Origin: Stenopsyche tienmushanensis
Taxonomy: Eukaryota > Arthropoda > Insecta > Trichoptera > Stenopsychidae
Assembly (NCBI GenBank): GCA_008973525.1
Contig: WACJ01000106.1
Location: 434,001 to 498,000 of the forward strand
DNA length: 64,000 nucleotides
Reading direction: 5' to 3'
The notes below the pieces were generated by a model that made no database searches, was not told the origin of the DNA, and saw only the letters and a list, made by a program, of their open reading frames with translations. A program made the translations under genes and the position numbers. Shown here piece after piece: positions 56,790 to 59,107 of this stretch. Numbering within the stretch: position 1 is the stretch's first letter; each line of letters opens with the position of its first letter.

Positions 56790-57013
56790 ATGTGGGGAAA
56801 TTTTCAGATGCCGGTCAGTGTTTTCGATCACTTATCGGGATTGGGAAAAAATAAAAACAGTGGCGCAAAGCAGGGCTTGCGATGTCAGGGAATTGGCGTC
56901 AATCGATGGACAACAACCCGGACTTGTAAACGTCCCCAAATTACACCCCGTTTTACTGTTGCTAAGAGAAAAGTTCGTGCATCTTGCACTTGTCCTGACT
57001 GTATACAAAATAA
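56790..57013 (+). CDS. Copy of an Sp gene exon (Btd box) upstream of the piggyBac-like ORF
   Basis: Encodes, in frame, LSGLGKNKNSG (compare LAGLGQLQQ in Sp), then KRPQITPRFTVAKRKVRASC and TCPDCIQNK, matching Sp's [32 protein letters not shown] at 47160-47280. The match extends 10 bases into the intron (GTACGTATTT in both), so it arose at the DNA level rather than by retroposition. The exon ends at 57013 in phase 2 with a strong donor. No zinc-finger exons follow. Start could be ATG 56790 or ATG 56808, the second directly after a TTTTCAG acceptor-like site. Confidence 0.65.
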
Positions 57014-57054
57014 GTACGTATTTTAAAAGCGTAAAAACAAATAGGTGCCCTTCT

Positions 57055-57205
57055 CAAACGTCGTCCATTTATTGCTAAGATTGCACGAGTAACATAGGCA
57101 TCTGATGTATAAAAAACAATATTTGTTTGTCCGCGTTTAATACGCTTCCGTACCGTTCATCCGAATGCGATAAAACTTTGTCGATTTATTTTTTACACCA
57201 GCGGG
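57055..57205. repeat. Helitron-like heads in the intron between the Btd-box exon and the piggyBac-like ORF
   Basis: GTCCATTTATTGCTAAGATT, AACATAGGCATCTGATGTAT, TTGTTTGTCCGCGTTTAATA and ACCGTTCATCCGAATGCGAT: one and a half units. Confidence 0.5.
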
Positions 57206-57345
57206 AATAAAATAGGCATAGTAAAAATATTGTTTATGTACGCATTTATGCGAGACGTGGCATTGCAACGCATGTGCATCGGGTATAATTGATTTATGCA
57301 TTTAAATATTATTTAATACACTACAGATTTAAAACTGACTTCCAG

Positions 57346-59107
57346 ATGCACGTTCACTCAAGAAGACGTCGTAAGATATTTGCACGAGGATAGCGATAGT
57401 GATGGAGAAGATACCGAAGGAAGTGTAACGGAAGATGTATTAGAAGCCCAGAAATATGATTTGTCAGAAGACGATTTGATAACACCATCTTTGGGAGTAA
57501 TTCCCGTCTCTAATAATCGTGAAATACACCAGCCTGGTATACCGTCACCGTCAAATACTGCGGAAGTTATTGAATTTAACCGAAGAGTTTTGCATGGGAG
57601 GAATAAATATATATGGTGTACTGAAAAAAGGACGCGTAATCGAACTCCTGCGTCCAATTTAATTAATATGGTCCGAGGGCCGACTCCTCAATGTAAAGCA
57701 GTGACTGATCCTTTATCCTGTTTTGAGATGTTTATAACTGATAACATTTTAAATGAAATTATCCGATGGACAAATGTCGAAATTGCAGTGCAACAAAACG
57801 ACGAATTCATCCGCAGCACTCAAAACGCTTCAGATAAAACGGAAATGAAAGCATTTATAGGACTTTTAGTTTTGACGGCCGTATTAAAAGATAACCACCT
57901 GTCGACTGATGAAATATTCGATTCATCTTATTGCGGATCGAGATATATTTCGACCATGAGTAAAGAGAGATTTGATTTCTTATTGCGTTGCCTCAGATTT
58001 GACGATAAATCCATACGGTTGAAAATGCAAAACAACGACAGATTCACGCCCATCAGAAAAGTATGGAGCTTCTTCGTAGAAAAATGTCAGACCAATTATA
58101 ATCCGGGGCTCAACGTGACAATAGGCGAACAATTTTTAGCGTTTAACGGCAGATGTCCCTTCCGTATGTATGTCCCCGATAAGCCGGAAAAACACGGTCT
58201 GAAAATTGTAACGATGTGTGATAACGATACTAAATACATGCTAAATGCAATTCCACATTTGGGTGAAAACATCGAAACCGGTGGTTTATCCTTGAGCGAG
58301 TATTTTGTTAAAGAGATAACGAAAACCATCCACGGTTCAAATAGGAACGTTACCATGGACAGTCGGTTTGCATCAATACCGCTTGCCAAATCGCTTCTTT
58401 GTGAGCCGTACAAATTAACAATGGTCGGCAATTTACATCCGAATAAAAAAGAAATACCGAAAGAGATGACCGATTTCGAGACGAAGCAAATTGGCTCTTC
58501 GATGCTTTGCTATGATGATGCACTCACCTTGCTGTCCTATAAATCTAAATCTAATAACGTAGAATACTTTTTGTCTTCTTTGGCCGAAGAACAAACGGTA
58601 AACGAAGCGAATAACAAATCTAACATCATGGAATATTACAATCGAACGAAGCGAGGCGTTGACGCGTTTGACCGAATGTGCAATAACATGTCTTGCAGCC
58701 GAAAAACAAATCGATGGCCCCTGTGTTTATTCTATGGAATGTTGAACGCGGCGTTTATAAATAGCTACGTAATATATTGTCATAATAAAATCGATGCCAA
58801 AGAAACGCCGTCGAGCCGGAAACATTTTTTGAAAGAGCTACATTCTAAATTAGTTTCGCCTTTATTAGAAAAGCGCCTGATTGTGCCTATATTGAACAAA
58901 AAGGTGAAGACTGATATACAGAATATGATCGCCGGGGGCTCGCAAGACACCAATGAAACTCCAGAAAGGGATCACTCTCCGAAAAAGAGGAAAATCTGCG
59001 GTATTTGCTCGTATAAAAAGCACCGCATGACAAAGTCAAAATGCTCCAAGTGTCACACTAGTATCTGCGGAGAGCACAAGGTTGTAATATGCATCAATTG
59101 TTCCTAG
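57346..59107 (+). CDS. piggyBac-type transposase-derived ORF, first catalytic Asp replaced; likely 3' exon of an Sp-piggyBac fusion
   Basis: Uninterrupted from at least 57326 to the stop at 59107. The first ATG in this frame is about 95 codons in (NLINMVRG), so the N-terminus must come from an upstream exon. Acceptor TGACTTCCAG at 57336-57345 lets the phase-2 Btd-box exon join as K-CTFTQEDVVRYLHEDSDSD. The core is close to the classical lepidopteran piggyBac subfamily: GRCPFRMYVPDKPEKHGLKI, FVKEITKTIHGSNRNVTMDS, PLAKSLLCEPYKLTMVG, and MSCSRKTNRWPLCLFYGMLN. The first catalytic Asp (usually TIDEQLLxF) is Gly here (TIGEQFLAF, codon GGC at 58124-58126). The second (TMDSRFAS) and third (GVDAFDRM) are present. 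The C-terminal zinc-binding tail is CGICSYKKHRMTKSKCSKCH. AATAAA lies at about 59169. Confidence 0.85.

Follow-up and report, generated by a model that had tools for sequence, protein, structure and literature searches.

The window analysed here, a stretch of 64,000 nucleotides from Stenopsyche tienmushanensis (Trichoptera; contig WACJ01000106.1, positions 434,001 to 498,000 of the forward strand), contains a gene candidate, designated copy A, in which exons of a tandemly duplicated, Sp-derived gene precede an open reading frame (ORF) for a piggyBac transposase. It is moderately probable that copy A and this ORF form a working host-transposase fusion gene, which would be spliced from 57013 to 57346 and expressed. 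The exon anatomy, the array of related copies, the open frames and the substitutions are the observations on which this explanation is built. A fusion at the copy A locus is plausible; for the array as a whole, such fusions have better support. The initial annotation of this DNA had already read the locus as an Sp-piggyBac fusion. What stands of that reading is an open gene with intact exon borders and no zinc-finger exons, a phase-matched ORF, and neighbours with the same layout; its arguments from the phase match and from a supposed need for an upstream exon do not hold in the form given.

The predicted copy A protein consists of an acidic N-terminus, an Sp-derived Btd-like linker and a whole piggyBac transposase of the T. 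ni type. All of its exons are on the plus strand. Exon 1 (53487-53543, MSFVLNEHIYLKEEHTDEE) is open, ends in phase 0 and has the GT donor GTAAAT; it was assigned by position and phase, by analogy with other members of the array, and its protein sequence is unlike theirs. Exon 2 (53622-53792) is acidic (EHVKIKSSPKD...LKEEPTHEE), homologous to exon 2 of the array, open, and in phase 0 at both ends between a TTATAG acceptor and a GTATAT donor. Exon 3 (53867-54013) is also acidic (KYVEFKPF...QSKQE), open and in phase 0 at both ends, with a CTCTAG acceptor and a GTACAT donor. Exon 4 (56808-57013) carries the Btd-box-like motif CTCPDC, runs from phase 0 to phase 2 and ends at the donor GTACGT. The putative exon 5 is the piggyBac ORF (57346-59107, 586 codons and a stop), and an AATAAA (59170-59175, plus strand) lies 62 bases past the stop. 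The four introns, of 78, 74, 2794 and 332 bases, are all of the GT-AG type, the last agreeing with the distance of about 330 bases noted earlier. The five exons join into a frame of 780 codons for a predicted protein of 780 residues, the single open frame over canonical splice sites by which a host-transposase fusion is recognised.

The gene at about 34-49 kb of the window, which we take to be of the Sp type in the Sp/KLF transcription factor family, is the parent of exon 4. Its Btd exon (47076-47280, plus strand) ends in phase 2, as exon 4 of copy A does, and its zinc-finger exons are located at 48078-48607 (plus strand, matches 48078-48233 and 48458-48607). In a comparison within the window, positions 56934-57023 match 47195-47290 of the Sp gene with a DNA identity of 75% (72 of 96 columns, E 2e-12). 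The gaps that interrupt this alignment (12, 3 and 3 bases) all preserve the reading frame, and the two exons have in common the donor and ten intron bases, GTACGTATTT. This bears out the claim that the exon was copied from the neighbouring Sp gene. It is not an isolated piece of Sp but the fourth exon of a derived tandem gene, whose three preceding coding exons the initial annotation had missed. The exon start proposed at ATG 56790 was also dropped; the exon starts at 56808, after TTTTCAG, where the acceptor also lies in copy E, copy F and those six copies with a cysteine-rich domain (CRD) that possess this exon. The Sp family is defined by a Btd box and three C2H2 zinc fingers. Copy A has the former (CTCPDC, compared with CTCPNC in Sp) but not the latter, and no match to the zinc-finger exons was found 3' of its exon 4 within the window. 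A search of the genome with exon 4 gave three further places, all on contig C106 (505.1k, 587.4k and 611.5k).

When a composite of the acidic exons was used as query, every one of the 34 matches fell on contig C106 at 487.6-611.4 kb, and they were grouped into 18 copies. They form a tandem array of about 124 kb downstream of Sp, with copy A as its first member. The general layout is an exon 1, two acidic exons with KxEPxSSDE-like repeats, and a basic exon 4 with a Btd box, followed in some copies by zinc fingers. Acidic exons 2 and 3 were found in the array only (exon 1 was not part of that search). Splice phases of the copies were read by eye, and the sections 514.5-542.8, 551.2-552.5, 566.5-568.0, 571.5-585.9, 592.0-596.0 and 599.4-603.9 kb were covered by genome-wide exon-match searches only. 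The copies differ in their 3' parts. Sp zinc fingers follow the acidic exons in three of 18 copies (C, a pseudogene; D; F), and C2H2 fingers were not found in the other 15, apart from a degraded exon in S. Copy E has the Btd exon with no fingers in the flank that was read (1/18). A piggyBac of the T. ni type follows in one copy (A), the same kind of piggyBac CRD in seven (G, H, I, J, K, M and N), other CRDs in three (B, Q and S) and a DUF4817/mariner transposase in one (O). In copies P and R (2/18) the flank that was read contains no more than part of exon 4.

Three independent captures can be argued in this array, namely those of A, of the G-N type and of O. The CRD of copy A is 75% identical over 40 residues to the database protein P0026, whereas its identity to the CRDs of the array does not exceed 42%, which supports different lineages for the CRDs of A and of the G-N type. 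Three transposon pieces besides these captures may be ordinary insertions. The CRDs of Q and B were set aside as functional captures; both come from repeated families, so that ordinary insertion is the probable origin of some of the array's transposase pieces. The 3' ORF of copy B (62133-62459, plus strand; zf-Tnp_2 E 3.9e-10) joins a Tigger N-terminus in frame with a piggyBac CRD behind an acceptor, and its Tigger part has a 241-column match to 54636-54867 at the copy A locus. Exon 1 of this copy is found at 60718-60822 (plus strand), and its merged exon 2/3 (60898-61200) has a 2-base frameshift near the end and has lost the donor GT. In copy S (C106:608465-608921) a CRD exon lies directly 5' of an Sp zinc-finger exon that has degraded, as if the replacement of one module by another had been arrested midway. 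A full piggyBac in the same copy has its own ATG and was rejected as a capture, looking like an ordinary insertion.

The seven copies with a CRD as last exon (C106:507.2-513.0, 543.2-550.5, 554.6-556.7 and 559.3-560.8 kb) provide the strongest evidence that fusions of this kind are genes, and in our judgement they quite likely are. The CRD exon is open in all seven, with one deletion of 3 bases, and of the finger's eight Cys/His columns seven are invariant. Pfam zf-Tnp_2 scored above its cut-off in all three copies scanned (G, H and N), and among the matches of a genome-wide search no CRD with a stop was found on C106. The CRD acceptor is in phase 0 in six of the seven (G is off by one base), and the exon-4 donor GT is retained in all six CRD copies that have exon 4. 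By eye, H is the sole CRD copy intact from exon 1 to the CRD. Between the three groups of these copies the ratio of nonsynonymous to synonymous proportions (pN/pS) is 0.63 (bootstrap 95% 0.42-0.91). With a synonymous tree length of 1.12, full neutrality predicts about 13 stops and 16 frameshifts on an assumed indel rate of 0.1 per substitution, 75% of them frameshifting; none were observed. If the last tenth of the tree alone were neutral, the chance of no damage would be 0.05. A protein-database search for array proteins gave one piggyBac fragment (P0121) and no protein with the array N-terminus. The closest CRDs outside the array are those of six tandem piggyBac ORFs on contig C93 (52-59% identity), and the next by E-value is at 48%; no high-copy family therefore appears to stand behind the G-N CRD. 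These C93 ORFs (2047782-2072458) are full-length open frames of 560-572 amino acids, 4.2-5.2 kb apart, and are probably another domesticated cluster. Nine short open frames with piggyBac-type CRDs on contig C65 (387833-1208468) are possibly another CRD gene family.

Copy O contains a second putative capture of a whole transposase, from a different superfamily. Its acidic exon runs into a DUF4817/mariner frame as one frame of 488 codons (C106:562036-563499), which crosses about 39 codons lying 5' of the start codon of its relatives and continues into a mariner-type transposase. Compared with its two nearest relatives in the genome (79% and 74%), the transposase ATG is replaced and FSDEAHF has become FSGEAHF; the Asp of this mariner motif is presumably the first catalytic one. 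The deletions relative to these sequences are 6, 21 and 9 bases, all in frame. The branch of copy O has 49 synonymous and 47 nonsynonymous changes with a pN/pS of 0.25 (0.18 and 0.27 on the other two branches), a value tempered by the time that this branch spent as a transposon. Copies A and O have separately lost the start codon and changed the first Asp to Gly with the frame kept, as capture predicts.

The junction of exon 4 with the piggyBac ORF is as had been claimed: exon 4 ends in phase 2, and the acceptor TTCCAG at 57345 opens the transposase in the matching frame. However, such a phase match commonly arises by chance and is weak on its own, because five in-frame AGs occur near the ORF start, at 57345-57423, and the Tigger ORF in intron 3 likewise has an acceptor that is phase-matched to exon 3. 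It was dropped as proof of the fusion. The pyrimidine tract of the TTCCAG acceptor is poor, and an AG in another frame lies 19 nucleotides upstream (57326). The weakness of the phase match and that of the acceptor count against the proposed fusion. The putative intron 57014-57345 contains a repeat at 57055-57229 with at least six more copies within the window (matches at 47718-47548, 38764-38587, 1094-1264 and 39225-39389, among others).

The transposase in intron 3 is of the pogo/Tigger type (54788-56471, plus strand; Pfam DDE_1, HTH_Tnp_Tc5 and CENP-B_N) and raises the question of whether exon 3 is spliced to it instead of to exon 4, as a different fusion or an alternative isoform. An acceptor CTTTTTTAG followed by GAAAAAATG stands before 54788 in phase 0, and copy B has an acceptor at the same place, with its Tigger N-terminus in frame with the CRD. 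This possibility is nevertheless very improbable, as the Tigger sequence of copy A is frameshifted after about 330 codons, giving the overlapping ORFs 54788-55801 and 55707-56471, and exon 3 of copy B is broken too.

The ORF 57317-59107 belongs to the piggyBac superfamily, of which it has the DDE_Tnp_1_7 domain (Pfam E 6.2e-63) and a C-terminal CRD (58979-59104, plus strand) with all eight conserved Cys/His columns kept; its match to PDB 6x67 has an E-value of 3.6e-174. It was aligned with the first 62 (P0001-P0062) of 120 listed proteins among 347 database matches. Most of these relatives begin with M-T/A/S-S-R or similar, about four residues, followed by an acidic D/E-D/E-I motif, while the N-terminus here reads L-T-S-R-C-T-F-T-Q-E-D-V. 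The N-terminal alignment and the window sequence place a CTG (57335-57337, plus strand) at the position of the start ATG, which explains the missing ATG of the ORF, and the proposed acceptor TTCCAG is the former coding sequence of T-S-R. The lack of an early ATG reported in the initial annotation is real, but its extent of about 95 codons is not: the first in-frame ATG is codon 108 past the acceptor (57668). It had been concluded from this lack that the ORF needs an upstream exon. This does not follow, since the old start is one base off ATG and the CTG or the codon-108 ATG could serve.

The ORF might accordingly have been domesticated alone, with its own promoter and a start at CTG 57335 or ATG 57668, the Sp-like exons ending elsewhere or being unused. 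The CTG is exactly at the ancestral start, and even a codon-108 start would keep the dimerisation/DNA-binding domain (DDBD), the catalytic domain and the CRD. The six open tandem ORFs on C93 (2.048-2.072 Mb) also indicate that full-length piggyBac frames occur elsewhere in this genome. Against it, copy A, with four exons and splice borders all intact, would then lack any 3' exon, and the fusion layout is used by its neighbours. We regard a stand-alone origin as distinctly unlikely.

An active element should have the DDD catalytic triad, and in this ORF the first Asp is Gly: a Gly codon (58124-58126, plus strand) is located at the site of the T. ni piggyBac catalytic D268 according to the PDB alignment, where 60 of 62 relatives have Asp (P0034 and P0061 lack it). 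The D346 and D447 sites still have Asp. In the DNW motif the Trp, which 61 of 62 relatives share, has become Arg. The alignment shows the changes D260G, N339S and W340R. Counting sites conserved in at least 95%, 19 of 129 are changed, which is the most among the 63 sequences compared. Eighteen of these changes fall in the 73 sites of the catalytic and insertion domains and one in the 56 sites elsewhere (Fisher p 2.4e-4; domain boundaries, including the CRD, were taken from PMC7351741, shifted by 8 residues). In the same test ten of the 62 relatives, picked by eye (six high in the ranking of changed sites and four others), gave p-values of 0.077-1, and two of them (P0049 and P0060) lean the opposite way. 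The pattern is consistent with retention of the protein for binding rather than for transposition. Decay could also produce it, and the relatives are too distant for a ratio of nonsynonymous to synonymous rates (dN/dS). In a simulation of neutral drift to a mean of 19.8 changes, with the indel assumptions given above, the frame stays free of stops and frameshifts with a probability of about 8e-7; with 9 changes this value is 1.9e-3. The ORF is present as a single copy in the 451-Mb assembly, where the next match is 40% identical. No TTAA-flanked piggyBac ends were recognised, and TTAACCC sites occur at chance level, though very diverged ends could escape such a search. The best TTAA-flanked pair matches at 8 of 13 positions. 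An inverted pair bounded by TTAA on either side (57023-57043/57120-57140) was rejected as piggyBac ends, its right arm falling within the repeat 57055-57229.

Selection on the upstream part can be assessed from the array. Pairwise dN/dS of exons 2-4 of copy A is 0.36 against copy F and 0.51 against copy E, and that of exons 3-4 is 0.58 and 0.62 against copies D and C. Bootstrap ranges of pN/pS are 0.42-0.68 for F and 0.48-0.84 for E.

It is important to weigh these results against another explanation, in which copy A is a dead, truncated tandem copy that no longer has zinc fingers. The adjacent piggyBac would be a dying transposon that has so far escaped stops and frameshifts, and the two would not be spliced together. 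Several observations favour this explanation or count against a working fusion. The loss of the ATG and of the first catalytic Asp also fits decay. The domain skew weakens to p 0.010 and 0.014 when sites conserved at 90% and 85% are used. If only about three of the conserved sites changed after death, the chance of an intact frame is 0.13. The bootstrap range for copy A against D (0.54-1.00) reaches 1.00. No orthologue of the copy A transposase was found, the best of the 347 database matches being 48% identical over 99% of the length (the highest identity among the 120 listed is 56%, over 80%, for P0037), and a protein-database search with the exon-4 part gave no match. Broken members are common in the array: C contains a stop and B a frameshift, the CRD acceptor of G is shifted by one base, exon 3 of J is preceded by GG in place of an acceptor AG, D has CAA for CAG before exon 4, and I, K, M and N have no usable exon 1. 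Within the youngest group of CRD copies pN/pS is 1.09 (0.59-2.38). Ordinary transposon pieces are present as well; the CRD of Q comes from a repeated family with at least 150 matches, and for the CRD of B there are 18 near-full-length family members at 64-68%. A repeat has been inserted in the gap between exon 4 and the ORF, and the Tigger of intron 3 is frameshifted. On the other hand, all four exons of copy A and their splice borders are intact, 586 codons are open despite 19 changed conserved sites, the changes are concentrated in the catalytic and insertion domains, and dN/dS of the copy A exons is 0.36-0.62 against four copies. This explanation is, in our estimate, rather unlikely.

The closest known kind for copy A as a fusion gene is the CSB-PGBD3 type; such host-transposase fusions are already known, and the present arrangement is a variant. 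The CSB-PGBD3 (ERCC6-PGBD3) fusion of primates (PMC2268245; PMC3459987) has a piggyBac in intron 5 that serves as an alternative 3' terminal exon, with the acceptor 7 nucleotides before the first Met and a polyadenylation site about 130 nucleotides after the stop (PMC2268245). The two are alike in an acceptor adjoining the transposase start, a nearby polyadenylation signal and an in-frame join to upstream host exons. In copy A the acceptor is 8 nucleotides after the old start codon and the AATAAA 62 nucleotides after the stop. They differ in that the full host gene is still made in the CSB-PGBD3 case, its acceptor precedes the first Met and its TTAA ends are present. In copy A, by contrast, no host 3' exons or transposon ends were found, the ATG and first Asp are lost, and the array neighbours have other modules.

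In tetrapods, 106 fusion genes from 94 independent fusions, with KRAB (for example KRABINER) and other domains, are reported in the review PMC8616336. Both there and here, host regulatory exons are combined through splicing (predicted in the present case) with transposase DNA-binding modules or whole transposases. The difference is that more than one superfamily is found here within one tandem array, and one module has been multiplied along with the gene. Compared with the T. ni piggyBac (PDB 6x67/6x68; PMC7351741), the alignment is near full-length, with the Asp of D346/D447 and the Cys/His residues of the CRD kept, but the present ORF has Gly at D268, a CTG at the start and no recognisable ends. 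As for the Sp/KLF family, Sp is the origin of exon 4, which has retained its phase-2 end, and of the zinc-finger exons in C, D and F, whereas acidic exons 2-3 are array-specific by search and fingers were not found in most copies. No Sp-piggyBac or insect host-transposase fusion was found in the accessible parts of the open-licence literature, which does not imply absence from print.

A likely mechanism can be proposed for these genes. A transposon would land downstream of the Btd or acidic exon in a duplicated Sp-derived gene, either within the intron that follows this exon or next to it, and its transposase ORF would become the 3' terminal exon, as the anatomy and the predicted splicing suggest. 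Catalysis, no longer required, would then decay while parts that presumably bind DNA or chromatin stay, in keeping with the pattern of substitutions. In copy A the transposase would have lost its start codon and its first catalytic Asp in this way and the conserved sites of the DDBD and the CRD kept. The captured units would spread by tandem duplication, which is seen for the G-N type, so that within the array the Sp zinc fingers would be replaced by transposase modules, the piggyBac CRD in seven copies and mariner in one. The resulting proteins might act as regulators guided by their transposase domains. The CRD of T. ni piggyBac binds transposon ends (PMC7351741), while that of Paramecium PiggyMac is reported to bind histone H3 and not DNA (PMC8086355). 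In view of this difference, the target of the array CRDs may be DNA or chromatin.

More broadly, and only tentatively, the array could be viewed as an exchange of DNA-binding domains. Sp-derived genes sharing a regulatory acidic N-terminus would repeatedly swap their zinc fingers for modules of different superfamilies (T. ni-type piggyBac in A, another piggyBac CRD in seven copies, mariner in O), after which they would be copied and diversify. They might make up a rapidly evolving repertoire that is directed at transposon ends or exploits them, and so be to invertebrates what the KRAB zinc-finger arrays are elsewhere. It is accepted that new transcription factors can arise by transposase capture, and surveys of such captures have dealt mainly with vertebrates, where the loci are separate (PMC8616336). 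The array offers several adjacent captures, a possible intermediate (S) and copies still carrying zinc fingers. If the proposal is correct, a single genome would document how a transposase is captured, how it loses catalysis and its start codon and how the captured domain spreads, and it could be tested whether such genes arise in response to transposons.

Other features of the window lie apart from these genes. A further uninterrupted piggyBac ORF of 578 amino acids is located between Sp and copy A (50912-52648, minus strand). An exon at 17337-17708 resembles what we take to be mitochondrial glycerol-3-phosphate dehydrogenase. A short repeat with the inverted arm pair GTCCAAAAAGTGG / CCACTTTTTGGAC is found at 59446-59600 and in more than ten other places.

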